A DNA stretch of 38,996 bases. Source: Verrucomicrobiia bacterium. Lineage in GTDB: Bacteria > Verrucomicrobiota > Verrucomicrobiia > Verrucomicrobiales > DEV007. Below, piece after piece: positions 5,823-29,536 of the stretch. The position numbers and the translations under genes were made by a program. The first letter of the stretch is position 1. Each line of letters opens with the position of its first letter. The stretch is taken from NCBI GenBank assembly GCA_030430255.1, contig JAUIGD010000012.1, positions 1 through 38,996 on the forward strand, written 5' to 3'. The notes below the pieces were generated by a model. It was given only the letters and a program-made list of their open reading frames with translations. It did no database searches and was not told the origin of the DNA.

Positions 5823-8800
5823 TCACAGTCCGCCGACGACCGTCGCCCGGCCCGGCGATCCGGGGACATCGACGAGCTCGATCTTCAGTCCGCCTTGGCT
5901 GCGCGAGGCGCGGTCGACCAGCACCACCACCTCGTGCCTCCCGACCTCGAGGGTCGCGCGCGTGTCTGACTTGGCGGCGACCATCGCCCCGCCGAGCAGC
6001 ACCTGCAGCCCTTGAGGGTTGTCGATCCGGAAACCGATCTCGCCGGCGGCGCTGACCTCGATCTCGAATTTGGCGAAGCTGAGGTCGTTGCTGAAGCCCT
6101 TGTTGACGCCCATCGCCGCGAGGGGGAGCTCGCCGGCGACCGTGCTGTAGGCGGCGTTCCACGGCCACCCCCGATCGGCGCCGAGCATCGCCTGGGTGCC
6201 CACCCGGCGGATCTGATGGCTCACCTCGTCGTTGTAGGGGAGCACCCGCCAGCGCCTGACGGTGCGTCCAGCGGGGACTTTGTAGGCGCCCTCTTTGCCC
6301 AGCTCCGAGAGGAAGCGCACGAGATCGACCAGTTCGTCGCGCCGCAGCCCCGCCGTCAGCCCGGCCGGCATGAGCGACACCGGGGCGATCTCCTTCTTGG
6401 CGATGTTGGCCACCGGCACGGTCGATTCGCTGCCATCGACGGCGCGCAGGACGAGCTCCCGGTCGGTCTCCCGCACGAGCGTGCCGGTCACCACGCCGCC
6501 ATTCTTCTGGGTCACCACGGTGGTGTGGTAGCCCTCCTTGATCTTCTTGGCCGGCTCCAGCAGCGAGTCGACGATGTAATCGACCGGCGCGCTCGAGCCG
6601 ATGCTCACCAAGTCTGGGCCGATCAGCCCCCCGCCGCCACCGATGGCGTGGCAGGTCTGACAGAGCAGCGCCCCTCGCCGGTAGATCTCCTCGCCGCGCG
6701 CCGGGTCGCCCGCCCTCGCCACGTCGGCGACGAACGCCGCCATCTCCTCAGCGCTCAGCCCACGCGCGATCGGTTGCAGGCCGCCCGCTTCGGTCAACGC
6801 GGAGACCAGGCCCGCGGTCTCGCCGCCGCTCTGCCCCGCCAACTTCACCCCCGCCGTGGCGACCGCCGGTGCCAGCTCCGTCCCCGACAGCGCCTTCGCC
6901 AGCGCGGCCGGACCGTCCTTGTGCGCGAGGAAGGCGCCGAACAAGGCGTCCACCGCGTCGCCGTCCTCGGCGTCCGCCAACACCGCCGCCGCCAGCTTCG
7001 CCCCGCGCCCGCGATCGCTCGCCGCGACCCCAGCCGCCCCCGCCGCTCGGGCCGCGATGCCACGCCCTCTGTCGCCCGCAAGCCCGGCCAAGGCATCGCG
7101 CGCGGATCCATCACCGTAGGCGGCCAGCGCTTCGGCGCCGACCGCAAACCGGTCGCTCTCAGCGAGCCAGCCGGCCAGCGCTCCCCGAGCCTCCTCGAGC
7201 TTCCAGGTGCCCGCGAGCCGGGCGGCGGCAGCGTCGCCCGCGTCGATCTGTTCCAACAACACCTCCCCGCGGAGATCGGCGGGGCGGGCGTTCCGCTCGC
7301 GCGCCGCCCGCAGCAGCTGCCCGAGGGCGAACTGGCGCTCGGCTGCGTCGCGGCCGTCCCCCAGCGCGGCGGCGTAGAGGGCGTCGAGGTCGGCGCCGCC
7401 CGCGACATCGCCGAACAGCGCCGCCAGCTCGCGGAAGGGCTCCCCTTCCGCCCCCGCAAGCTGCCCGCGCAGGAAGCGCAGCGCCCCGGGCTTCTCGATC
7501 GCCTTGAGGCAGAAGTTCAAGGCGTCGCCGCGGCCGGCGAAATCGAGCTCCCCGGACTCCAGCGCCGGCAGCCAATCGGCCTCCAGCTCCCGCGCGGCGA
7601 GCCACAGCGCGAAGTCGAGGTTGGTGTCGATCGCCGAGCCGAACACCGGCAGGATCGCTCGGAACGAAGTGAGGCCGCCGACCTGCCGCAGCGCGCCCAC
7701 CGCCTCCAGCCGCACCTGCGGGTGCGGGTCCATCGCCGCCTCCGCTAGCAAGCCGGCGGAATCATCGAGCCGGCCGTGCCAGTGGTAGAGCACGCGCACG
7801 GCCGCGGCGCGCAAGCGGTGGTCGTCGCCGCCCAGCAGTTCCCGGAGCAAGGCTTCGTCGAGCGAACCGACCCCCTGGTTCGCCCACAGGATCTCCAATT
7901 TGTCTTCCCCGCGCAGGCCGGGCTCCGCCTTGAGCTTCGCCAGCTCCGCCAGCACCGCGCCACGCTCGCGATTGCGGAGCTCCCGCTTGGCGGCGTGCCG
8001 CACCGCGCCCTCTGGCGAACGCAGTTGTGCCACGACGGCCGGCAGCCCCGCACCCACGACCTCCGGGCGCTTGGCGAGCGGACGCCCTTTATACGTCACC
8101 CGCCAGATCCGCCCGTGTTCGTGATCGCGGCGCGGGTCGCGGAAATCGACCTCGCCGTGCTGGATGATCGGGTTGTACCAGTCGGCGATGTAGAGCGCGC
8201 CATCCGGCCCGACTTTGACATCGACCGGCCGGAACGCGCCGTGCGTGGTGCGGATCAGATCCGGCGCCTGGCGCGACACGTAGCCGCTGCCGCTCTCGCT
8301 GACCACGAACCGGTTCACGCGGTGGCCGCGGAAATCGTTGGTGATCAGGTTCCCCTGCCACTCCTCCGGAAAGTGGCTCGAGTAGACCACCTCCAGCCCG
8401 CACTGCTTCGGCTGCCCGGGGTTGAGCCCGCGGAGGATCTTTTTGGCGTTGTGCGCGGTGAAGAACACCGCGCCTGGGAAGACGTAGTTGATGCCCTCGC
8501 CGAAGGCGCCATCGGTGGCGAAGCTCTGCCCGTAGCGGTCGAAGGCGTGCCCCCAACTGTTGACGAACCCGCGGGCGAACACCTCGAGCTCGGCGGTCTC
8601 CGGGCGGAAGTGCCAGATCCCGCCGGCGAGCAGGCGGCGCAGCCCGTGCGGCGTCTCGACGTGCGAGTGGATATAGATCGACTGGTTGAAGTAGAGCATC
8701 CCGTCCGGCCCGCCGCGGAACGCGTGGATGATGTGGTGGGTGTCTTCGGTGCCGAAGCCGCTCAGCACGACGCGCCGCTCGTCGGCCTCCAGGTCGCCGT

Positions 8801-9233
8801 CGGTATCCTTCAGGAACAGCATCTCGGTCGAGTTCGCGACGTAGGCGCCGCCGTCGCCGGGCATCACGCCGGTCGGGATGAGGAGGTCCTCCGCGAACAC
8901 GGTCGATTTGTCCGCCGCTCCGTCGCCGTCGGTGTCCTCCAACACCACCACCTGATCGTCGGAGCGTTCGCCCGGCTTGATGTGCGGGTAGAGCCGCGAG
9001 CTGACGACCCAGAGCCGCCCCTGCTCGTCCCAGTTCATCCCCACCGGCTTGGCGATGAGCGGGTCGGCGGCGAACAGGTTGATCTCCAGACCTTCGTCGA
9101 GGACGAAGGTCGCCATCTGCTCAGCCGGGTCGGGCTTCGGGATCGCGTCGGGAGGGAGGTCGTTCTGGGCCGGGAGCCGACCGGCGAGGAGGGCGGCCAC
9201 GACGGCGGACAAAGCGAGGCGGGGAGTTTTCAT
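5823..9233 (-). CDS. PVC-type haem-binding CxxCH protein / putative membrane-bound dehydrogenase, with HEAT-like middle region
   Basis: 1136 aa from ATG 9233, signal peptide MKTPRLALSAVVAALLAGRLPAQ; NHL/glucose-dehydrogenase-like N-terminal propeller (VGMNWDEQGRLWVV, VVVLEDTDGDGAADKSTVFAEDL); C-terminal GEEIYRRGALLCQTCHAIGGGGGLIGPDL. Confidence 0.93.
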   Translation of the reverse strand: MKTPRLALSAVVAALLAGRLPAQNDLPPDAIPKPDPAEQMATFVLDEGLEINLFAADPLIAKPVGMNWDEQGRLWVVSSRLYPHIKPGERSDDQVVVLEDTDGDGAADKSTVFAEDLLIPTGVMPGDGGAYVANSTEMLFLKDTDGDLEADERRVVLSGFGTEDTHHIIHAFRGGPDGMLYFNQSIYIHSHVETPHGLRRLLAGGIWHFRPETAELEVFARGFVNSWGHAFDRYGQSFATDGAFGEGINYVFPGAVFFTAHNAKKILRGLNPGQPKQCGLEVVYSSHFPEEWQGNLITNDFRGHRVNRFVVSESGSGYVSRQAPDLIRTTHGAFRPVDVKVGPDGALYIADWYNPIIQHGEVDFRDPRRDHEHGRIWRVTYKGRPLAKRPEVVGAGLPAVVAQLRSPEGAVRHAAKRELRNRERGAVLAELAKLKAEPGLRGEDKLEILWANQGVGSLDEALLRELLGGDDHRLRAAAVRVLYHWHGRLDDSAGLLAEAAMDPHPQVRLEAVGALRQVGGLTSFRAILPVFGSAIDTNLDFALWLAARELEADWLPALESGELDFAGRGDALNFCLKAIEKPGALRFLRGQLAGAEGEPFRELAALFGDVAGGADLDALYAAALGDGRDAAERQFALGQLLRAARERNARPADLRGEVLLEQIDAGDAAAARLAGTWKLEEARGALAGWLAESDRFAVGAEALAAYGDGSARDALAGLAGDRGRGIAARAAGAAGVAASDRGRGAKLAAAVLADAEDGDAVDALFGAFLAHKDGPAALAKALSGTELAPAVATAGVKLAGQSGGETAGLVSALTEAGGLQPIARGLSAEEMAAFVADVARAGDPARGEEIYRRGALLCQTCHAIGGGGGLIGPDLVSIGSSAPVDYIVDSLLEPAKKIKEGYHTTVVTQKNGGVVTGTLVRETDRELVLRAVDGSESTVPVANIAKKEIAPVSLMPAGLTAGLRRDELVDLVRFLSELGKEGAYKVPAGRTVRRWRVLPYNDEVSHQIRRVGTQAMLGADRGWPWNAAYSTVAGELPLAAMGVNKGFSNDLSFAKFEIEVSAAGEIGFRIDNPQGLQVLLGGAMVAAKSDTRATLEVGRHEVVVLVDRASRSQGGLKIELVDVPGSPGRATVVGGL

Positions 9234-9280
9234 GCGGAGATCAACGGGGTTGCGAGTCGGGAAGGCGGGCGGGGGGGCGC

Positions 9281-10186
9281 TCAGCGGGCCGCCAACTCCG
9301 AAGCGAGGGCGTGGATCGCGGCGTCCTGCGCCTCGACGAGCGGGGTGAACTCGGCGATCTCCGCCGCGTTCTGCCCCTGCTCGTGCTTGCGGAAGCCGCG
9401 CAGATAGGTCTCGTTCTGCGGTCTCCAGCCGTTGAAGAACAACCGGTTCTTCTCGACCACCAAGCCCCGCAGGCGCTCGAAGTCCTCGCTGAGCGATGGG
9501 GCGGGCGGGATGCCGAACCCCGCCGCGAAGGCGGGCGCGATCGCGGCGTAGCCCGCCTCGGTGAAGTGGACGCCGTTGTCGGTCAGCGCGCCGGCTGCGG
9601 CGACCTGTTCCGTCAGCGCCCCGAACAGGTCGACGAACCCGTAGCCCTCGCGCTCGGCGAGCTTCGCGATCGCATCGCGGTAGACCGCCAGTCGGGCGTT
9701 CTGCGCCGCCATGTCCGGCAGCGGCGCCCCGAGCGTCTCGCAGGGCGGCGGCGAGATCAGGCAGATGCGCGCGCCCAGCCCGGCCACCATGTCGAGCAGC
9801 CGCTCGTAGCCCTTCTCGAACTCCGCCAGGCCCGCCTCTCCGGAGAACGCCGCGTTGCCCCCGTAGCAGGCCAACACCACCGTCGGCGCCACGCGTTCGA
9901 GGTTCGCCTTCAAGCGGTCGAAGCCCTCCTGCGGCGGACCGAAGTAGGACCGCGCGTGGCAATCGACCGTATCTCCGCTCCAGCCCATGTTGCGCACCGT
10001 CACCTTCTTGCCCGCCAAGCCCACCGCAAGCCGGGCCTCGAGGTGCCCGTAGCCCCCTTCGCGTTCGAAGAAGGTGTTGCCCAGCAGGACGATCCGGTCG
10101 CCGTCCTCGAACTCGAACGGGGCGGCGGGCGAGACGGTGGCGAGCGCTGCCACCACGGAGGTGACGGCGAGGGTGAGGGTTCGCAT
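9281..10186 (-). CDS. SGNH/GDSL hydrolase family protein
   Basis: 301 aa from ATG 10186 with signal peptide; IVLLGNTFFEREGGYG, RNMGWSGDT, VVLACYGGNAAF, DNGVHFTEAGYAAIA block pattern. Confidence 0.88.
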   Translation of the reverse strand: MRTLTLAVTSVVAALATVSPAAPFEFEDGDRIVLLGNTFFEREGGYGHLEARLAVGLAGKKVTVRNMGWSGDTVDCHARSYFGPPQEGFDRLKANLERVAPTVVLACYGGNAAFSGEAGLAEFEKGYERLLDMVAGLGARICLISPPPCETLGAPLPDMAAQNARLAVYRDAIAKLAEREGYGFVDLFGALTEQVAAAGALTDNGVHFTEAGYAAIAPAFAAGFGIPPAPSLSEDFERLRGLVVEKNRLFFNGWRPQNETYLRGFRKHEQGQNAAEIAEFTPLVEAQDAAIHALASELAAR

Positions 10187-10273
10187 AGCGCGGGTATATC
10201 GCCCCGGCGCGGGGCGGTCAACCGCGAGCTTCCGCCCTGCCGTCGCCCTGCCGGGAATCGCCACCGAGAAAGG

Positions 10274-11944
10274 CTACACCTCTGTCCGGAAGTCGCCCCC
10301 GAGCGCCAGGTGGAGATCGACGCGATTCTGCAGCCGCTGGTTGCGCAGGGAGATCATCGAGTTGCGCGCCTGCACCGCCCGGCGCTGCGCCTCGAGCACC
10401 TCCAGGATGCCGACGATGCCCTCCGAATAATCGCGCGACGCCTGTTTCTCCGCGAGGTCCGCCTGGCGTAGTTCGACCTCGAGGAATGCCTCTTGCTGTG
10501 CGAGCGAGCGCTCCGCCGCCAGGGCGGACTCCACTTCCCGCAGCGCGCGCAGCGCCTCCCCGGCGAAGTTTTGCAGCGCCTCCCGGTTCCGCTCCAGCGC
10601 CCGCCGCGCCTCCGCGCGCAGCGCCCCGCCCTGGTAGACGGTCTGCGCCAGCGATGAGGCCGCGTTCCAGACGATCTGCTCCGGGTCGAGCAACATCTCG
10701 CCGAGCTCCTCGCTGGAGGTGGAGCCGCCGGCGCTCAACCGGAACGAGGGCAGCAGGTCCTTGCGCGCGGCGTCGGCACGCTTCGCCGAAGCGCGCACCG
10801 CGCCGGCCGCCGAAACCAGGTCGGGCCGCCGCATCAAGAGTTCGCTCGGCAGTCCGGCGGGCACGCCTTTGCGCAGCTTGGGCAACTCGGTGCCCGCCCG
10901 CACCGCCGCCGACGGGTAGCGCCCTAACAACCCTTCCAAAACCCGCGCCGCCTCGTCGCGGGCCTGCTCGCGACCGACGACGTCCCGCTCCGCCGAGGCG
11001 ATGTTGTTGCGGCTGAACTGGACGTCGAGCGCGCTCGCGGTATCGTCGCCCGCCTTGTAGTTGCGCTCGATGATGCGGCCGTTGCGCTCGTAGCTCTCCC
11101 GCGTGGCGACCGCGAGGTCGAGTTGCTGTTGGGCGGTGATCAAGTCGAAGTAGGCCTTCGCGGTGTTCGCGGCCAGCGACAGGCGCGCGGCGCGGAAGTC
11201 GGCTTGCGCCGCCTCGAAATCGGCGTAGGCGGCGTGGTCGAGGTCACGCAACCTCCCCCACAGGTCCATCTCCCACGAGGCGTCGAGGGAGAGGCCGTAG
11301 TCGGTGGAGTAGCGGATGACCGGAACGGGGTCGGGGGTCGCCACCGCCGCCGTCGCCCCACCGGCGGCGGCCATCGCCGCACCGTCGGTCATTGTGCTGC
11401 TCGTCCCGTCACCGGTGGCGGCCATGCCGTCGCCTCCGGTCGAGCCATCGCCGGCGCCGGCGCCGCCATCGGTCGCCGCGCCATCGCCCATGGCCGCGGC
11501 CGCCATGCCGGTGCCGGTGCCGGTGTCCGCAGCAGCCGCGCCGGCCGCCGAGGAAGTCGTGGCGGCGGGCGCCGGCGGGGTCACCAGTTCCGTCCGCCGC
11601 GTGCGCCGCGACGAGCCGCCGATGTTCAGGGAAGGGAATCGGGATGCCCGCCCGAGAATGGTGCCTTCCTCTGCTTGGCGCAGTCGCGAGGCCGCGGCCG
11701 CGAGGTCGTGGTTGTTGGCCATCGCCTCATCGATGAGGCGCTCCATACGCCGGTCGTCAAAGGTCTTCACCCAACCGGTCGAGATCTTCCCGCCGTTGCC
11801 CTCCCCGGCGCTATCCCAGAGTGCCGGCAAGTCGCGCGGTGCGGCCGAACCGGCATCGGGCTGCCCCTTCTTCAACAGCACGCATCCCGGGAGCATCACC
11901 GCGAGGGCGACGGCGGCAACGGGGCGGGCAAAGCGGATGGGCAT
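10274..11944 (-). CDS. Efflux outer-membrane factor lipoprotein, NodT/OprM family
   Basis: 556 aa from ATG 11944; lipobox AVMLPGCVLLKK; WVKTFDDRRMERLIDEAMANNHDLAAAASRLRQAE, WEMDLWGRLRDL, LLGRYPSAAV, LLMRRPDLVSA motifs. Confidence 0.95.
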   Translation of the reverse strand: MPIRFARPVAAVALAVMLPGCVLLKKGQPDAGSAAPRDLPALWDSAGEGNGGKISTGWVKTFDDRRMERLIDEAMANNHDLAAAASRLRQAEEGTILGRASRFPSLNIGGSSRRTRRTELVTPPAPAATTSSAAGAAAADTGTGTGMAAAAMGDGAATDGGAGAGDGSTGGDGMAATGDGTSSTMTDGAAMAAAGGATAAVATPDPVPVIRYSTDYGLSLDASWEMDLWGRLRDLDHAAYADFEAAQADFRAARLSLAANTAKAYFDLITAQQQLDLAVATRESYERNGRIIERNYKAGDDTASALDVQFSRNNIASAERDVVGREQARDEAARVLEGLLGRYPSAAVRAGTELPKLRKGVPAGLPSELLMRRPDLVSAAGAVRASAKRADAARKDLLPSFRLSAGGSTSSEELGEMLLDPEQIVWNAASSLAQTVYQGGALRAEARRALERNREALQNFAGEALRALREVESALAAERSLAQQEAFLEVELRQADLAEKQASRDYSEGIVGILEVLEAQRRAVQARNSMISLRNQRLQNRVDLHLALGGDFRTEV

Positions 11945-12129
11945 CCCCTCCCCGTAGCAAATCCCCCCCGGTTCGCCAAGCGAAGATCGTTCGGGCCGGG
12001 CGCAGCGGCCCGCAGGCGCACCGGACCCGGGGGAGCGGAGCTCCGACCTCTCCGCCGCTGAACCGGGCGAGCTGCCGAATGCCACCCGCGCCGGATGCCG
12101 AAGCCCTCCCCGCCCCGTCCTGTCCCCGC

Positions 12130-13761
12130 TCAGGGCTCCAGAGTTTCCGGCTCGACCAACTCCGTCCCCTCCGTTTCCAAAGTCCGCATGAGGTGGAACT
12201 CGAACTGCTCCTCCTCCATCAGGATCCCTGAGCCATCACTGAAAACCACCGCCCGCTTGCCATCGCGGCTCCATGGGCTGGCGAGCAAGATCGTGTCTGC
12301 GCGGCTGGCGTCGTGGAGCCCCCGGACATAGAACGGCGTGCGGAGCAGCCCTCCCGGGCCGCGGAGCCGCAGCGGTTCGGCCGTCCCCAGATCGTCGACG
12401 ATCGCTTCGAGGTCATCGGGGTAGACGCCGTCGTTGTCGATCGCCCAAACGCGCAGCCCCATCCCGACCATCTTGAGCTGCGAAAGGTCCTGCATCTCCT
12501 GCGCCCGCTCCTGCACCCGTTGAAACACCGGGACCGAGACCCCTGCCATAAACCCGACCGCAGCCGCTCCCCACACGGCCCCCGGCGTCATGACTTGTCC
12601 CCCTTCGGGCGCGGTCGAGACGGACAGGACCCCGTCGTCCAATGCGGCGGACGCGGCGGCGATGTCCGCCGGGACTCCGCCCCCGTAGAGCCGCAGGATC
12701 CCCTCGCGCGCCGCCGCATCCAGATCGGGTGCGGACTCCATCACATCGGTGAGCAGCGCGGTGTACTTCTCCCCAAACCGGGGCGACACGTAGGTGAAGA
12801 AATTCCCTTCCTTCGGCAGCGGTGCCGTCGCGGCCTGGAATCCCGGCTCGGCCCAGAGCCCGCCGGTGCCGGCCAAGACCTCGTCCAAGAACGCCGCACT
12901 CGTCGCCGCCGTCAGGTGGCCTGACACGGTGTCGAAGTGCAGCACCGGCTGCATGAAGGGGGCGTCGGGAGGCAGCGGCGGCAGCGCCATCTTCCAAAAA
13001 CCGTCGCCCTTCTCGATGGCGTCCTCGGGGATCTCCCCGGCCAATCCCTCCACCAGCCAAGCCACGTCCTCGAGGCGCACCGCCGCCTCGAAGGCGGGCA
13101 CCTCCACCGGCGCATCGGGGATCTCGAGGGTCGCCTCGGGATCCAGCCGCATCACCACGACCAAACGCGTGTGCAGCTCGCTCATCAGGGTGCCGACGTC
13201 CATCGGCAGCGGTTCGGCCGCTTGCCCGAGGAGTTGCTCCCAGCCGTCCTCGATCTCCGGCTTCCCCATCGCCTCGACGAAAGCGTCGCCGATCGGCCGC
13301 ATCGCGCGGAGGTCGAGCTCCAACTCGAGAACCCAGTCGCTCCCGGCCGGCGCCGAGGCCGCGCTCGAGAACGGCCGCGCTTCGGTGCCGATCAGCGTCA
13401 GCAGCCCGCGCCGCGACCCGGTCTTGGTGAACCCCCGGACGACGGTCCGCCCGCCCGCCGTCTTGGTGCTGGAGCCGAAGGCTTCGACGCCGTCGAGACC
13501 GAGCGCCCCGACCATGTCGCCGACGATGGGCGGCACCTCGTCGCTGCCGGTGATCTCGCCCACGAGCGCGATCACCTCATCCGCCCAGCGGCCGACCGCG
13601 GCAGGGTCGCCAGCGACGTCGACATAGCGGAAGGACTCGCCACCGAGTTCGAGGTGCTGGACCACCGAATCGAAGTGGGGCGACTTCTCTTGGGCGGTGG
13701 CCACCGAGGCGGTGATCGCGGCGGCGAGCGGGGCGAGGGCGGAGAGCCGATGGAGTTTCAT
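12130..13761 (-). CDS. Secreted protein of unknown family with C-terminal pseudopilin-like domain (paralogue 2)
   Basis: 543 aa from ATG 13761; signal peptide MKLHRLSALAPLAAAITASVATAQ; C-terminus GAAAVGFMAGVSVPVFQRVQERAQEMQDLSQLKMVGMGLRVWAIDNDGVYPDDL resembles the TM/helix/YP block of verrucomicrobial pseudopilins. Confidence 0.8.
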   Translation of the reverse strand: MKLHRLSALAPLAAAITASVATAQEKSPHFDSVVQHLELGGESFRYVDVAGDPAAVGRWADEVIALVGEITGSDEVPPIVGDMVGALGLDGVEAFGSSTKTAGGRTVVRGFTKTGSRRGLLTLIGTEARPFSSAASAPAGSDWVLELELDLRAMRPIGDAFVEAMGKPEIEDGWEQLLGQAAEPLPMDVGTLMSELHTRLVVVMRLDPEATLEIPDAPVEVPAFEAAVRLEDVAWLVEGLAGEIPEDAIEKGDGFWKMALPPLPPDAPFMQPVLHFDTVSGHLTAATSAAFLDEVLAGTGGLWAEPGFQAATAPLPKEGNFFTYVSPRFGEKYTALLTDVMESAPDLDAAAREGILRLYGGGVPADIAAASAALDDGVLSVSTAPEGGQVMTPGAVWGAAAVGFMAGVSVPVFQRVQERAQEMQDLSQLKMVGMGLRVWAIDNDGVYPDDLEAIVDDLGTAEPLRLRGPGGLLRTPFYVRGLHDASRADTILLASPWSRDGKRAVVFSDGSGILMEEEQFEFHLMRTLETEGTELVEPETLEP

Positions 13762-13787
13762 AGCGATGCTTCTTGCTGGGTTCCCTG

Positions 13788-15488
13788 TCAGTCCAAATAG
13801 ATGTCGTCCCCGGTGCCGGGCACGCCGTCCGGCCCCACCGAGAACACGTCCGGTTCGCCCGGATCTCCACGCAGGCCCGGGAAAACGTAGCGGTACTCCT
13901 GCCCCCAAGGGTCGCTGAACACCTCCTCGATCATCGGTTCCCACCCCTCCACATCACCGGGGTCTTCCACCAAGGCCCGCAAACCCTCCTCCGTCGTCGG
14001 GTAACGACCGGCGACGATCTGGAACAGGGTCAACGAAGTTTTCAGAGTGTTCAGGTCCGCCTGGAGGCGCGCCCCTTCGGCATCGGCCCGGACGGCTCGC
14101 ACCGCAGCGATCTCCGCCCGCTCATCAGCGACCACGTTCTTCCTCACGAAGAATGCGGGAGCAGCCAACAACACCGGGGCCAAGGCGGCCGCCTGCTTCA
14201 CGCTCGCCGGCGAGTTCGAGACGAGCCACACCCCGTCCTCAGCGTTGGCCTGCACCTGCGCGTAGTGCGAGCCGAGGTAAGGCAGCATCCGTTCGACGAG
14301 GTCGATCCCGCGCTCGACGACCTCCGGAGCCTGCCCCGTTTCGGACAGGGCCTGCCGATAGAGCGCCCGCAGCTCCTTGCCGAAATTCGGGCTGAGGTAG
14401 ACCAAGCCGTTCCCCTGCGTCGGCAGATCGGCGGTGGCTTCCTTGAACGCGGCGTCGGCGAACAGCCCGCCGGTGCCGCTCTCGCACTCTTCCAGAAACC
14501 CCGCCGAAGTGGCGAAGGTGACCTGGCCGCTCGCCTCGTCCCGCCGCAGCACCGGCTCGCCGAGCGGGTTCGGGGGCAGCGCCAGCACCGTGCCACCTTC
14601 CGTCTCGGTGAGCGCGTCCGCAGCCTCGGGCGGCAGCTGCTTCACCACCCGGTCGAACAGCCAACCCAAGCCCTCGAGTGATACGTAGAGTTCGGGGCGC
14701 GGCACTTCCGGGGCCCCGGCGCCCAGTTGGAGGCGATCCTCAGCCAGCCGGCCGATGATGATCGCCCGCGTATCGAGCTTCTGGAACAAGTCACCGACCG
14801 TGACCCCAAAGTCGGCGACCCCCTGGCCCATCGCTTCGGCGAACCCGCGCTCGCCCTCGGCACCGGCGTGCTTCGCCAGGTCCCGCCCCAACCGGTACAG
14901 CTCGCTGAGGTTCACCTCGCGCTCCATCAACAAATCCGTGCCCCGCGGCGCCAGCGCCGCCGTTTTGAACGCTCCCGCTTCGCGTCCGAGCAAGCGCAAC
15001 AGGCCGCCGCGCCCGCGCGGTGTGTGCAGATACACCTTGTTGAGATAGCGCTCGCCCTTGCGCGCCGAACTCACCCCCAAGGCCTCGACCCGGTCGAGGC
15101 CGAGGTCGGCGAGCACCTCGGCGAGATCGAAGTCGGCCACCTGTGGCGGCAGTTCTCCCTCGGGCACCAGCGCCAGGATGTTGTCGAAGTAGCTGGCCAC
15201 CGCCGGGGCGACCTCAGAGAGATCCCGGTAGATGCACACCTCGGCACCGAGGTCGATGTGCCGGAAGGTCGCCTCCCAGCGCGGCGGAGCACCGGCCACC
15301 TCGGGCGATGGCAGAGCTGCTGAGCCCCCCGCCGGCGCCGCGCCTTCCCCTCCGCCGGCACCGGCCTCGCCGTCCGCCGAGGGCTTGTCCCCACAGGAAG
15401 CACCGAACAGTGTCGCCAGCGCCAGCACCGCAGCGGGCGCCGAACCTGATCTCAAAGCCCGCCGGGGCGGGAAAAGGTCGCGTTTCAT
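13788..15488 (-). CDS. Lipoprotein-like secreted protein with C-terminal GspG-like pseudopilin domain (paralogue 1)
   Basis: 566 aa from ATG 15488; LATLFGASCGDKPS possible lipobox; C-terminus LKTSLTLFQIVAGRYPTTEEGLRALVEDP...FSDPWGQEYRYVFPGLRGDPGEPDVFSVGPDGVPGTGDDI matches the T2SS protein G pattern; N-terminal region alignable by eye to 12130-13761. Confidence 0.85.
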   Translation of the reverse strand: MKRDLFPPRRALRSGSAPAAVLALATLFGASCGDKPSADGEAGAGGGEGAAPAGGSAALPSPEVAGAPPRWEATFRHIDLGAEVCIYRDLSEVAPAVASYFDNILALVPEGELPPQVADFDLAEVLADLGLDRVEALGVSSARKGERYLNKVYLHTPRGRGGLLRLLGREAGAFKTAALAPRGTDLLMEREVNLSELYRLGRDLAKHAGAEGERGFAEAMGQGVADFGVTVGDLFQKLDTRAIIIGRLAEDRLQLGAGAPEVPRPELYVSLEGLGWLFDRVVKQLPPEAADALTETEGGTVLALPPNPLGEPVLRRDEASGQVTFATSAGFLEECESGTGGLFADAAFKEATADLPTQGNGLVYLSPNFGKELRALYRQALSETGQAPEVVERGIDLVERMLPYLGSHYAQVQANAEDGVWLVSNSPASVKQAAALAPVLLAAPAFFVRKNVVADERAEIAAVRAVRADAEGARLQADLNTLKTSLTLFQIVAGRYPTTEEGLRALVEDPGDVEGWEPMIEEVFSDPWGQEYRYVFPGLRGDPGEPDVFSVGPDGVPGTGDDIYLD

Positions 15489-18923: not shown

Positions 18924-20054
18924 ACCTCCTCCTCATCGTCGTCACCCGCCACCTCGCCGCGCAGGCGCGACTCGATGAAGCCGTCCAGGGCGCCGTCGGT
19001 GACCCCCTCGACATCGCTGGTGCGGTGACCGGTGCGGTGGTCTTTGACCATCTGGTAGGGTTGGAACACGTACGAACGGATCTGGCTGCCCCAGGCGATC
19101 TCCCCCTTCTCGCCGTACTGCCGCTCCATCTCCGCGCGCTTCTTGTCCTCCTCGAGTTGGAAGAGCTTCGCCCGCAACAGGTTCATGGCCACCGCCCGGT
19201 TCTTGTGCTGGCTGCGCTCGGCGCTGCAGCGGATCAGGATGCCGCTCGGGTGGTGCCTCAACAGCACAGCGGTCTCCACCTTGTTGACGTTCTGGCCGCC
19301 CTTGCCGCCGCTGCGGGTGGTGGTGATCTCGATGTCCTTCTCGTCGATCTCGATGCCGCCGGTGTCTTCGAGCTCCGGCACGACGTCGATGCTCGCGAAC
19401 GAGGTGTGCCGCCGGGACTGCGCGTCGAAGGGCGAGATCCGCACCAGGCGGTGGACCCCGCGCTCGGTGTTGAGGTAGCCATAGGCGTTGTGGCCGATCA
19501 CGTGCAGCGTCGCCGAGCGGATGCCCGCCTCGTCCTCCTCCTGGATCTCCACCAGCTCGACCTTGTAGCCCCGCCGCTCCGCCCAGCGCTGGTACTGGCG
19601 CAGCAGCATCGAAGCCCAATCGCAAGCCTCGACCCCACCGGCGCCGGCGTTGATCGTCAGGTAGGCGTTGGCGTCATCGTGCTCGCCGTCGAGCAACAGG
19701 CGCAGCTCCAGGTCGGAGAGGGCGGCCCCCAGTTCGTCGAACTCGGTCTTCACTTCCTGCGCGGAGGCAGCATCGCCCTCCTCGCGGGCGAACTCGATGA
19801 GGTCGGCGATGTCGCCGACGCGGCGCTCCAGCTCCAGATAGCCGCTGATCTTCTTCGCCGTCTCCGCGTGTTGGGCGGAAACCTTGGCGGCGCGCCGGTT
19901 GTCGTCCCAGAACCCGGGGGCGGACATCTCCGCCTCGAGCTCTTCCTGCTCTGCGTTCAACTTCCCCAAGTCAAAGATAGCGCCTCAGCTCGCCGAGGCG
20001 CTTCTTCAGGGAGTCGGTGTCGAATGCTTGCAGGTCGATGGAAACGGTCGCCAT
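18920..20054 (-). CDS. prfB: Peptide chain release factor 2 with +1 programmed frameshift (20054-19974 joined to 19972-18920)
   Basis: ATG 20054 reads [27 protein letters not shown] then UGA (19973-19971) in CTT TGA C; a +1 shift continues [24 protein letters not shown]... [14 protein letters not shown] is the release-factor GGQ motif. Confidence 0.97.
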
Positions 20055-25036: not shown

Positions 25037-27169
25037 TCAATCGATTTCCGCCTCCGCCGGCGGCTGGCTGCGGGCGGCGAGTTCCCGCGCCGACTCGGTG
25101 ATTTTCTTCTGCAGCACGGCGGCGTCTCGGATTTGGCGCAGCAGGATCTCGCCCGCCTCTCCGACCTCCCGCTGCACCTCGTCGTGGAAGTCGACGGTGC
25201 GGCGGTTGATGCGCAACTGGGTGAGCCGGAGCAGCTTCAACTCAGCGCTCGGCGGCAACAGCGGCGGCTGCCCCTGTTGCCCCTGCTGCTGTTGTTGTTG
25301 CTGTTGCTGTTGGTTCTGCATCTGCTGGGCGATCTGCACCGCCTCGATCAGCTCCTCCAGGGTCGTCTCGATCTCGCGTTGGGAGCGCTGGACGAAGGTG
25401 CCCGTCTGCTGGTCGTCGATCAGGTCGGCGATGGCGATGAGGTCATGCTTCATCCCCTCCACCACGTTGCGCACCACCACGCTGGCGCCCTCCCCGACCA
25501 ACAATCCTTCGGCTTCCTCCGCCTTCTCGGAAAGCTCGCGCTCCGCGACTTCAGCCGAGCGGAGTTCGATGCGGTCGGCGCGGCGCAGGCTGCCGCCCTG
25601 GGCTTCGCGCTTGGCGTCGACAGCCGCAACGGTGGCGCTGGCCTCCTTCTGTTTCACCAGCATGTCGCGGAAGATCTGCTCCAGCTTGATCAGCGCCTCC
25701 ATCTGCTGGTCCTGCCGGAGTTCGTCCAACTGCTCCTGGACCTCCTGCCGCGCGCGCTCGAGGTCCTCCAAGGCGTCGCCCTGATCCTGGGACGCGCCGC
25801 CGGGGTTGCCCTGCGCGAGGCTACCCGCCGCCTTGCCCATCTTGCCCTGGGCGGATTCGACCGCCTCCTTGGCCGACTTCTGCCCTTCGCGCAGAGGGTC
25901 TTGTTGCCCGCCCTCTTCCCCCGGCGAGCCGGCCAGAGAATCCCCCATCTCCTCGGCGAGCTGCCCGGTCTCCCCGGCGGTCCCGTCCTGCTGCTGTGCC
26001 AAGCCCTGCATGTCCTCAGGTGTCATGCCGGCGATGCGGTCGCGCTCCGCCTGAAGTTCTTGAAGGGCGCGGTTGAGATCGTCGAGGGCTTGCGACTCCG
26101 AGTCTCCGGCATCTTTGCCTTTGCCGAGCGCCAAGTTCTTCTCCGCCCCCTCCTGATCTTGTTCCGCGTCCCGCATCGCCTGAGCCCCGGGCCGTTGAGA
26201 AGGCTCCTCCTCGCGAGGCGCCGGTTCCAATTGATTTTGCGAATCCTCAGCGAAGGGATCGAAGGGCTGCTCACCGCCCTGCGGTTGCTCCCCACCCTCG
26301 GGCTGCTCCCCGCCCTGCGGCTGCTCACCGCCCTGCGGTTGCTCCCCACCCTCGGGCTGCTCCCCGCCCTCGGGTTGCTCGCCGCCCTCGGGTTGCTCTC
26401 CGTCCTGCGGCCGCGTGTCGCCGTCACGCTCACCTTCGGGTCCCTTTTCGACCTCCTTGCGTAGCTTCTCGGTGTCTTCGCGGAGTTTGCGCTGTTCTTC
26501 GGCGACAGCGTCGAGGCCATCGATCCCCTTTTGGGTCTCCTCCGCCGTCTTCTCTTTGAGTTCGGCCTGCCGGTCGATCAAACGCTCCAGTTCGGCGATC
26601 TGGCGGTCGAGATTCTCCAGGGCCTGATCGCGCTCGTTGCGGATGTCGCTCTCCTGCTTGAGCTGGGTCTCGTCGTCGATGAGTTTGTCGAGCGCCTCCT
26701 TCCAGCGCTCGAGTTTCTCGATCTCCTTCTGGATCCGCTGTTCCTCATCGTCGGCCAGCAGCATCTCGATCAGCGCTTTGACGTCCTCGATGGCGCGCCC
26801 CTGTTCCTCGTTGGCGGTATCGAGTTTCGAACGGTTGAGGAGTTCGGCGATCTCGTCCATGCGGCGCTCCAGCAGCATCTCCTTCGAAGCCTTGAAGGCT
26901 TCGATCAGCTTCTCGGCCTCCTCGGGGTTCTCCGCTTGCAGCGCCCTCGCGAGTTCGGTGAACTGCCGCTCGAGATCGACCACCATCCGCTTCACCCGCT
27001 GCTGGCGCACCCCGAGGGGCGTCTCGCGGGCGGCGCCCGCCCCGTCGGCCCCCTCCGCATCCGCCGGCGCCGGAGGGGTATCCGCCGTCTGAGCCGCCAG
27101 CGGCAGCGCCGAAACGCACAGGGTAAACCCGACGAGAGCCGCGGGGAGGATAGGGATCACACGTTTCAT
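25037..27169 (-). CDS. Secreted coiled-coil protein with GEQP[EQ]G tandem repeats and poly-Gln tract
   Basis: 710 aa; signal MKRVIPILPAALVGFTLCVSALPLAAQ; long charged heptad-like regions. Confidence 0.9.
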   Translation of the reverse strand: MKRVIPILPAALVGFTLCVSALPLAAQTADTPPAPADAEGADGAGAARETPLGVRQQRVKRMVVDLERQFTELARALQAENPEEAEKLIEAFKASKEMLLERRMDEIAELLNRSKLDTANEEQGRAIEDVKALIEMLLADDEEQRIQKEIEKLERWKEALDKLIDDETQLKQESDIRNERDQALENLDRQIAELERLIDRQAELKEKTAEETQKGIDGLDAVAEEQRKLREDTEKLRKEVEKGPEGERDGDTRPQDGEQPEGGEQPEGGEQPEGGEQPQGGEQPQGGEQPEGGEQPQGGEQPFDPFAEDSQNQLEPAPREEEPSQRPGAQAMRDAEQDQEGAEKNLALGKGKDAGDSESQALDDLNRALQELQAERDRIAGMTPEDMQGLAQQQDGTAGETGQLAEEMGDSLAGSPGEEGGQQDPLREGQKSAKEAVESAQGKMGKAAGSLAQGNPGGASQDQGDALEDLERARQEVQEQLDELRQDQQMEALIKLEQIFRDMLVKQKEASATVAAVDAKREAQGGSLRRADRIELRSAEVAERELSEKAEEAEGLLVGEGASVVVRNVVEGMKHDLIAIADLIDDQQTGTFVQRSQREIETTLEELIEAVQIAQQMQNQQQQQQQQQQGQQGQPPLLPPSAELKLLRLTQLRINRRTVDFHDEVQREVGEAGEILLRQIRDAAVLQKKITESARELAARSQPPAEAEID
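25276..25322 (-). repeat. Poly-glutamine CAG/CAA microsatellite within CDS
   Basis: Encodes QNQQQQQQQQQQGQQGQ. Confidence 0.85.
26265..26408 (-). repeat. 18-bp coding tandem repeat, about 8 units
   Basis: Encodes GEQPEGGEQPEGGEQPEGGEQPQGGEQPQGGEQPEGGEQPQGGEQP. Confidence 0.9.
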
Positions 27170-27232: not shown

Positions 27233-29536
27233 CTACGAATCGGCGGGGGCGGTCGGGGCGGCGGCGCTATCACCCCCGCCCGCCCCGGGCTGGGACTCGG
27301 GCTCGGGCTTCGGCTCCCCGCCGCCGTCGGGGCGATCCTCGATGACCGTCCCGAGTTGCTCCGCCTTCTCGCCCTCGGTCAGCTTCTGGATCCGCTCTTG
27401 GGCGCGTTGGATCTCGTAGAGCAAATTGACCGCCATCTGGTACGTTTCGTTGCGCACCATGTGGGTGAGGACTTCGTCCATGGCGGCGATCGCGCGCCGC
27501 TGGGCATCCATGGCGGTGGCGAAATCCTCCGCCCGGGCAACCGGGTCGCCCTCCCGGCGGGCGGCGTCGAGGGCGAGCGCGGCGCCGGCGAGCTCGACTT
27601 CGGCGACCCGCTTCAGAGGGGCGATGACCTTGGTGTTGAGCCGCTCTTTGAGGATGCCGTCCTCCTCCTCGAGGCGGTTGTTGACGATCTCCTGCACCAT
27701 GCCCTGCAGGCGCTCGATGATCGGCCGCAGGTTCGACGCCATCAGCTTCTGCTGCTTCTGGATGGCCACCAAGCGCTCGTCGGCGGACGGGTCGAGCTCC
27801 TCCATCTCGCGGGTCTCGGCATCGAGGGCGCCGACATCCGTGAGGAGGAGATCCTGCTTCTTCACGAGTTCCCCGAGGATCCCCCGCTGTTCTTTCTCGC
27901 GGCGGAGGAGGTCGGCGCGCAGTTCCGCGACGCCGACCACACGGAGGAGCAGCGGCGGCGATTCGCCGATGCCCGGCCCCGAGACCAGGTTGTTGTCCTC
28001 GGCGCGCACCGTCACGCTCAGGCGGGAGTTCACCGGCACGTCGAGCGGACCGATCTCGACCCCGCCCGCGATCTCCAGCTCGTTGCTCGAGACCTCAGTG
28101 ATGATGCCGTCCGTCGGCAGCTCGCCGCGGCGGGGCTCCTCCTCCTCGCTGGCGTCTTGCTTCCACTCATACAGGAGCGCCACCTTCTCCACCGCATAGT
28201 CGTCCGTGACCGAGCCGCGGAACGGCAGCCGCACCCCCGGCACGACCATGCCGCTCACGCCCTCCAGCGCCACCTGCACGCGGGGTTTCTTGTCCGGGGA
28301 GAGGCGGATCTTGAAGCGCACCGGCTCGCGCGGCCCGAGCCCGACCAGCCCCTCCTCGCCGGGCAAAGCCATCCTCTCGGTGTCCTCGATCGCGAGTTCG
28401 TACGTGCCCGCCTCGAGGGCGCCGGCATCGACCGCTCCGCGGAACCCGCCGTCCGCGATCTCGAGAGGGTATTCGCGATCGCCGAGCTTCAGCGCCGCAC
28501 GCGCAAGCGCTTTGTCCGTGCGGCCGGTGACCTCCAGGCGGGTGCCGCCGAGCAGATAATAGGGGCCGGCGCCGACCGGCAGTTCCCGCGAACCACCGCC
28601 GGTGTACTCGGGCGCCACCGCCATGAGCTTCAGTTCGGCGATGCGCGGCCGGTCGACGAGTTCGACCTTCAGCCACTCCGTCTCCGCCTCTCGGCTGCTG
28701 AGGCGGAACTCGACCGATTCCACCAAGTTCACCAGCTCGGCGACGAACTCCATGCCGTCGCCGCCGCGCACCATCGACTCGCGCCGGGTACCGGAGGCGG
28801 AGCGGACCTCCAACTCGACCTCGTCCGGTCCCGCCTCGAAGCCCGGCCCCGGGACGACCTTCGCCACCACCGGCCAATCGTCGCCGCGGGGGACGCGCAA
28901 TCTGCCCTCCTCCGCCCCGGCGATCTCGAGGAAGTACTTCTGCGGCCACTGCGAATCCCCGAGCAGCACGTTGCGGTCGAACCAGGTTTGCGCCGGCTTG
29001 AAAAACGCCAGCGAGACGGCGCCCAGTGCCGAGAACAGCCCGAGGAACACCAACAGGACGGCGTTGAAGCGCAGCCGCCCGAACCGCAGGACCTTGGTCA
29101 GGTCTACCGCGCGGCCGGCTTCGGCTCCGCGCTCGATCGTCTGGTGCACCATCCCGCGTGAGACGTTGGGGTCGGAATCGAGGTCCATCCGCGCGAGCTC
29201 CAGGGCGGAGATCAGGCGCTCGTCGAGCCCCCCTTCGCGCTGCTCGGCCTGCAGCAGCAGGGCGTCGTCGCTCAAGCGCGAGAACAGCGGGCGCAGCAGC
29301 CAGCGCCAGAGCGCGTAGAGCACCGCCGCCGCCCCGAGCACCAGCATGATCGTCCGCTGCGGCTTGTCCATCCGGAAGTTGCGGTCCACGAGGTAGCTGA
29401 TCGCGACGAAGCCGAACAGGAACAACAGAGCCTTGTTGACGCCGTCGATGAGGAAGAAGCGGATGACGGCGCGACGCATCGAGGCGATCACCCGGGCGAG
29501 TGAGCGCGGCAAGCTTTGGCGGTCCTTTGAGGGCAT
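27233..29536 (-). CDS. DUF4175-like membrane protein with two N-terminal TM helices and long coiled coil
   Basis: 767 aa; FFLIDGVNKALLFLFGFVAISYLVD and TIMLVLGAAAVLYALWRWLLRPLF TM segments; DDALLLQAEQREGGLDERLISALELA. Confidence 0.85.
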   Translation of the reverse strand: MPSKDRQSLPRSLARVIASMRRAVIRFFLIDGVNKALLFLFGFVAISYLVDRNFRMDKPQRTIMLVLGAAAVLYALWRWLLRPLFSRLSDDALLLQAEQREGGLDERLISALELARMDLDSDPNVSRGMVHQTIERGAEAGRAVDLTKVLRFGRLRFNAVLLVFLGLFSALGAVSLAFFKPAQTWFDRNVLLGDSQWPQKYFLEIAGAEEGRLRVPRGDDWPVVAKVVPGPGFEAGPDEVELEVRSASGTRRESMVRGGDGMEFVAELVNLVESVEFRLSSREAETEWLKVELVDRPRIAELKLMAVAPEYTGGGSRELPVGAGPYYLLGGTRLEVTGRTDKALARAALKLGDREYPLEIADGGFRGAVDAGALEAGTYELAIEDTERMALPGEEGLVGLGPREPVRFKIRLSPDKKPRVQVALEGVSGMVVPGVRLPFRGSVTDDYAVEKVALLYEWKQDASEEEEPRRGELPTDGIITEVSSNELEIAGGVEIGPLDVPVNSRLSVTVRAEDNNLVSGPGIGESPPLLLRVVGVAELRADLLRREKEQRGILGELVKKQDLLLTDVGALDAETREMEELDPSADERLVAIQKQQKLMASNLRPIIERLQGMVQEIVNNRLEEEDGILKERLNTKVIAPLKRVAEVELAGAALALDAARREGDPVARAEDFATAMDAQRRAIAAMDEVLTHMVRNETYQMAVNLLYEIQRAQERIQKLTEGEKAEQLGTVIEDRPDGGGEPKPEPESQPGAGGGDSAAAPTAPADS

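Follow-up and report, generated by a model that had tools for sequence, protein, structure and literature searches.

Pilins are defined by their N-terminus. The prepilin peptidase reads a class III signal there (a short leader, G/A before F, and Glu5) and cleaves it; the same part of the protein is methylated and, in the core of the filament, packs through Glu5. In the modular minor pilins a pilin module is joined to an unrelated domain, and the graft sits on a complete pilin with its type III signal peptide (SPIII; PMC10191384). The Geobacter pilin is split, stick and head being separate proteins (PMC10191384), and shows that a head lacking alpha1-N can stand alone. Here we describe a protein family represented by two tandem genes, A and B, on contig JAUIGD010000012.1 of a Verrucomicrobiia bacterium (assembly GCA_030430255.1; the 38,996 nucleotides analysed are called the window). 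As in the modular minor pilins, a pilin module is joined to an unrelated domain, but in the A/B family the domain comes first and is Sec-exported, and the pilin is truncated. Judged from its sequences, the family is the reverse of a modular pilin. In the literature searched, the terms 'Verrucomicrobia', 'pseudopilin' and 'prepilin' were never found together.

Two tandem genes with leaderless pilin modules

Gene A (positions 13788-15488) and gene B (12130-13761), both on the - strand as are all their parts, are tandem paralogues, with 26 nt between the stop codon of A and the ATG of B. A preliminary description of this DNA had proposed that the two adjacent genes share an N-terminal region of ~430 amino acids. 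The shared region was readily recovered (33% identity over 463 aligned columns, 162 bits, E 1e-47; 33-37% for the domain in pairwise comparisons), and the exported domain was measured at ~365 amino acids instead (A residues ~75-432). The same tandem pair is present in genome G013.

Gene A has an ATG start (MKRDLF) and codes for an exported protein of the lipoprotein type. Its parts are, in order, a signal peptide with the lipobox LFGAS^C (15396-15488), the ~365-residue domain (14190-15263), a conserved SxK, a 17-residue hydrophobic stretch (QAAALAPVLLAAPAFFV, 14145-14195), a linker, and a GspG module (13806-14084). The C-terminus had been described as GspG-like, and the profiles bear this out: the tail matches T2SSG (PF08334) over residues 471-563, in a numbering that counts 2 extra residues before the protein start, with an E-value of 2.1e-21 and 76-80 bits against a cut-off of 21. 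The same stretch was matched with solved GspG structures (E ~1e-14). With the TIGR01710 equivalog model it scored 60.7 bits, below the cut-off of 88.85. The last ~95 residues share with GspG the fold-defining motifs, namely DPWGxxYxY and the calcium motif GxDGxxGTxDD, which reads GPDGVPGTGDD in A and GADGQGGTADD in its orthologue. From a comparison with the PERCAL motif of PMC3396595 this is a predicted calcium loop; a loop of the GPDGVPGTGDD type binds calcium in the pseudopilin 3G20 (PMC3396595). Unlike GspG, A has no leader, no GFTLIE and no alpha1-N of its own, and its module lies behind the 365-residue exported domain and the linker. The tail was poorly modelled by AlphaFold2 (predicted local distance difference test, pLDDT, below 50), and the pilin identity of A therefore rests on sequence profiles.

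Gene B starts with MKLHRL and codes for an exported protein with the same N-domain (12604-13665) and a different pilin head. Its signal peptide (MKLHRLSALAPLAAAITASVATA, 13693-13761) is of type I, carries no lipobox and ends near ATAQ. The hydrophobic segment (PGAVWGAAAVGFMAGVSVPVFQ, 12520-12585) corresponds, by comparison with the prepilin ITIIAILAGVALPVF of the same genome, to pilin alpha1-N from about residue 10; it contains Pro22 and no FTLxE. The head itself (12166-12519) is of the DNxGxYPDxL type. Scans of the Pfam and NCBIfam libraries gave no match to the B tail. It resembles, over the alpha1 region, true prepilins from the same genome: C384 most closely (35% identity, E 6e-6), C651 and C162 more weakly. 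All three carry FTLIE or a near variant. In the AlphaFold2 model the C-terminus forms a single helix of 48 residues that leads into strands (pLDDT 82-92), the hydrophobic part being uncertain. The pilin-like end expected for B was recovered in this way, and alpha1-C plus a beta-sheet head is predicted for both proteins, in B by the model and in A by the T2SSG profile.

Junction, recurrence and exchange of the pilin heads

No prepilin-peptidase site precedes the modules of A and B, as noted in the preliminary description, and this holds for the family. Pro22 could be anchored in 54 members; an acidic residue at position 5 occurs in a single one of these, which was probably mis-anchored (the anchoring was partly automatic and is imprecise for some members). 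The junction was mapped by aligning fused proteins of the AKEQWAL head type with stand-alone prepilins of the same genome group. Identity between the two was 0 at pilin residues 1-3, 5-7, 9 and 12, and 1.0 at residues 17, 18, 20, 22 and 28; it is thus almost nil at residues 1-9 and begins at ~13-17. Therefore, the module is a pilin minus its first dozen residues, without peptidase site and Glu5. The junction lies at the Gly14-Pro22 stretch or immediately ahead of it; this stretch is non-helical in assembled pili, its helix being lost on assembly (PMC5059446). The alignments show a family architecture: a predicted DUF3352-like domain, then a (pseudo)pilin reduced to its C-terminal part, which starts near residue 13 in mature-pilin numbering. 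From that residue on, heads and alpha1 closely resemble the type IV prepilins of Verrucomicrobiota (AKEQWAL/CPxGG, H-X9-DG/DUF1559 and others), whereas the stretch of residues 1-12, and with it the peptidase site and Glu5, gives way to the end of the exported domain. Because the modules lack the prepilin leader and Glu5, their normal assembly by a type II secretion system (T2SS) or type IV pilus (T4P) is very unlikely. Given established pilin biology, a protein without the part that is cut, methylated and packed is no ordinary filament subunit. The earlier suggestion of a fusion family outside normal T2SS assembly stands.

A single-sequence search for related loci gave no relatives; these were retrieved with an 8-row alignment of the family as query. 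Relatives of the exported domain occur in 46 of the 290 genomes of the order and in 93 of the 390 genomes of the phylum Verrucomicrobiota, the named matches being Verrucomicrobiales and Verrucomicrobiia metagenome-assembled genomes (MAGs). The open reading frames (ORFs) are typically of 500-700 amino acids, and in most retrieved members the C-terminal ~100-170 residues are pilin-like. The window itself comes from a fragmented MAG (679 contigs, 89% complete), where an assembly or frameshift error could have fused a secreted gene to an adjacent prepilin gene. Such an artefact is hardly credible and was rejected because the fusion recurs in independent genomes: the same architecture and junction, with no stop codons, are found in dozens of them, including the single-contig G306, G370, G367 and G041, and both parts are under purifying selection.

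At least six types of pilin head were distinguished, by simple patterns first and then with correction by eye. The main ones are GspG, DNxGxFPDxL, GEdY, AKEQWAL/CPxGG, H-X9-DG (several members of which match Pfam DUF1559) and WQN/CPxGG. Two members (L123, L130) were read by eye as having two heads in tandem at the C-terminus, and one (L135) three. A lipobox-like signal is present in 41 of the 82 members with a complete N-terminus.

Leaderless pilin parts were also seen behind other partners. L248 (G486:C29:7500-10800) is a GYF_2 plus DUF4190 protein whose last transmembrane helix runs directly into a pilin from about residue 16 (GLMAAIAVPNFVQARN...AKEQWAL); it is another leaderless pilin fusion, with an N-terminal partner different from the DUF3352-like domain. 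In L021 (G032:C173) a GspG head without prepilin leader (T2SSG, E 3e-20) lies behind DUF4190-like transmembrane helices (E 2e-4). L247 (G443:C77), an exported protein of ~625 amino acids with no Pfam match, ends in an AKEQWAL/CPxGG head without the pilin hydrophobic segment.

A tree of 67 N-domains served to trace the history of the heads. It requires at least 13 changes of type, where 6 would be the minimum; automatic labels had given 20 changes, reduced to 13 when misassigned rows were relabelled by eye. A and its G013 orthologue, both with GspG heads, are sisters (support 100/99), as are B and its orthologue (100/95), and the four form one clade (98/84). As each copy is sister to its own orthologue, the gene was duplicated before the two genera diverged. 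The tree shows a gene duplication in the lineage of the window followed by head exchange to GspG in copy A, and most simply the A copy gained this head between the duplication and the split. What A and its orthologue took from GspG is confined to alpha1-C and the head, the hydrophobic segment being that of the host protein. Derivation of the A head from the GspG of its own genome was considered and dropped, as the GspG tree gives no clear placement around A, which sits on a long branch (1.29). The ratio of nonsynonymous to synonymous substitution (dN/dS) of the heads was 0.15-0.30 in seven of nine pairs, similar to that of the N-domain, and 0.40-0.47 in the two window pairs, in which dS is near saturation. 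The heads are under purifying selection.

Location and possible partners of the head

Our tentative preference is that the leaderless head of this exported, often lipidated protein docks on resident type IV filaments or pseudopili. The head would recognise resident pilins or pseudopilins, and, once docked, would position the DUF3352-like domain, which is often tethered to a membrane, at the pseudopilus or pilus, where it could serve as anchor, cap or escort. Since A exchanged its head for that of GspG, its partner would be the T2SS pseudopilus, and that of B another filament. The nearest precedent for docking is the Geobacter split pilin, in which the separate head protein recognises the stick subunit. 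In the A/B family, by contrast, the head is joined to a large exported domain and retains part of alpha1-N. No direct evidence emerged for the 'sensor or tether' role suggested in the preliminary description.

Potential partners exist in the genome of the window, where the pilus machinery mentioned earlier as worth seeking was found: a prepilin peptidase, several ATPases of the PilB/PilT/GspE type, GspG and ~23 prepilins. The same genome also carries L052 (G000:C547:5006-5242), a 137-residue GspG-like protein whose N-terminus is lipoprotein-like (LGSGIGC) and lacks a prepilin motif. Stand-alone proteins of the AKEQWAL type were counted at E < 1e-7 with profile A5, built from this head minus its hydrophobic part. 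They occur in 12 of 12 genomes with an AKEQWAL fusion and in 1 of 35 with other head types (Fisher p 2.5e-10, before allowing for phylogeny), and those inspected were genuine prepilins, nearly all with FTLxE. Because these genomes are related, the association is suggestive rather than independent. A strict co-occurrence of the family with T2SSG over the order was also considered; it says little because nearly all genomes, except those of genus g19, carry T2SSG.

Several observations weigh against docking on filaments. Since the genomes with AKEQWAL heads form nearly one clade, phylogeny is a confounder of the link between head type and resident pilins. Clustering of the flanking ORFs of ~60 loci revealed no conserved T2SS or T4P neighbours and no partner beyond one genus. 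Some members have no head (at least four in genus g4, and others in g43), so the head is dispensable in some lineages. Foldseek searches with the full-length models of A and B gave no pilin among the best PDB matches, and the fold claim for B therefore rests on predicted secondary structure and sequence homology; nor did Foldseek settle the fold of the N-domain, whose best match, TP0453, has a template-modelling (TM) score of 0.40. A conserved cysteine triad that might point to the periplasm (see below) was lost on one branch only. Finally, the hydrophobic segment could be a stop-transfer helix, which would leave the head in the cytoplasm, as a simple view of Sec export would predict.

This last point leads to a different protein, with a signal peptide, a periplasmic N-domain, a stop-transfer helix, and a pilin-like signalling or sensing module inside the cell. 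Such a topology is to be expected when a protein exported by Sec has a single hydrophobic stretch further on, and Lys/Arg residues average 3.0 after the segment and 1.3 before it. However, these charges are inherited from pilin alpha1-C, and the positive-inside rule was rejected as a means of settling the topology for that reason. The segment is shorter and weaker than a continuous hydrophobic alpha1-N of ~25 residues, being intermediate between a true pilin helix and the interior of the N-domain. Its summed hydrophobicity is +4.3 against -1.6 for true prepilins (values serving for comparison only), it has a conserved Pro in the middle, and it appears too weak for a clear transmembrane helix. 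In one head type three cysteines occur together in nine members, and three members, which belong to one clade, have none of them. These co-occurring cysteines and the calcium motif suit an oxidising, calcium-rich compartment. The intact motif in A and its orthologue, the cysteines and the weak segment favour a periplasmic head, none of them being proof. We consider a cytoplasmic head improbable; the head probably lies on the periplasmic side together with the N-domain.

The pilin module might instead be a mere folding or anchoring unit: the hydrophobic segment would keep the domain at a membrane, and the head would be a stable spacer or stalk that has no filament partner. Members that end right after the hydrophobic segment (...STPMIHQLR) in several genomes fit this explanation, as does the lack of conserved pilus-gene neighbours. 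One further headless protein, L203 (G173:C71), has in place of the pilin head a Cys-rich C-terminus of 100 residues (16 Cys). A mere spacer accords poorly with purifying selection on the head similar to that on the N-domain, with the retained GspG calcium motif, with head types that change in step with the resident pilins, and with the two or three tandem heads of some members. On balance, a spacer or stalk seems unlikely, although it deserves serious attention.

The proteins could also be substrates of the T2SS or T4P, the head being an export or surface-targeting signal and the DUF3352-like lipoprotein reaching the cell surface along with the pseudopilus. Surface lipoproteins exported by a T2SS are known, PulA among them; about half of the family is of the lipoprotein type, and GspG and GspE are present in the genome. 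Against this, in G173 and G278 the N-domain is present with no T2SSG match listed, though their copies are headless. Transport of this kind is, in our judgement, quite improbable. Docking of the head on resident filaments or pseudopili remains our preferred, if tentative, explanation.

The exported domain, the neighbourhood and the significance of the fusions

The N-domains of A and B were retrieved with profile A1 (E 5e-113 and 2e-113, respectively, the training set including A and B themselves), and neither reaches the cut-off of DUF3352 (PF11832), a family without assigned function; a Pfam scan gave no match. The label of an unknown family, used in the preliminary description, was replaced, since phylum-level homologues exceed that cut-off: L146 and L148 score 38.3 and 31.4 bits against 26.8, and further members score just under it. 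For this reason, the N-domain of the A/B family is classified, from its sequence relatives, as a divergent DUF3352-like domain. DUF3352 was mentioned nowhere in the literature searched.

The N-domains of both proteins were well modelled by AlphaFold2 from a 12-sequence input (pLDDT mostly 76-95 in A). In Foldseek, the best structural match of the A model was TP0453 of Treponema pallidum (PDB 3k8g-3k8j; probability 0.99, E 0.0046), a match that presumably comes from the N-domain, where the model is confident. TP0453 is an outer-membrane-associated lipoprotein and A likewise is of the lipoprotein type, but the TM score is only 0.40, with a root-mean-square deviation of 8.6 and 8% identity. The match of the models is a lead, not a relationship.

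The region 3' of B (window 5823-12085, - strand) codes for a TolC-like outer membrane efflux protein (PF02321), a GDSL hydrolase and a DUF7133 protein, and contains no pilus genes. Two adjacent long ORFs at 25037-27169 and 27233-29536 (- strand; 710 and 767 amino acids) had no Pfam match at 1e-5. At 19970-19976 (- strand) lies the programmed +1 frameshift site CTTTGAC of prfB (RF2), which is ordinary autoregulation.

A broader proposal is that Verrucomicrobiota use leaderless heads as interchangeable docking modules that bypass the prepilin peptidase, the heads being repeatedly replaced by those of resident pilins, and the inverse modular pilin capping, anchoring or loading filaments; this is possible, but we put it forward with some doubt. 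Pilin heads seem to be interchangeable parts across Verrucomicrobiota, probably for docking. If so, a phylum-wide family that keeps a selected head, has discarded the pilin N-terminus and has swapped heads about a dozen times would reveal a function of the head outside filament assembly. It would also give a way into two questions: what the heads of T2SS pseudopilins recognise, and how the cell anchors filaments or limits them in the periplasm.

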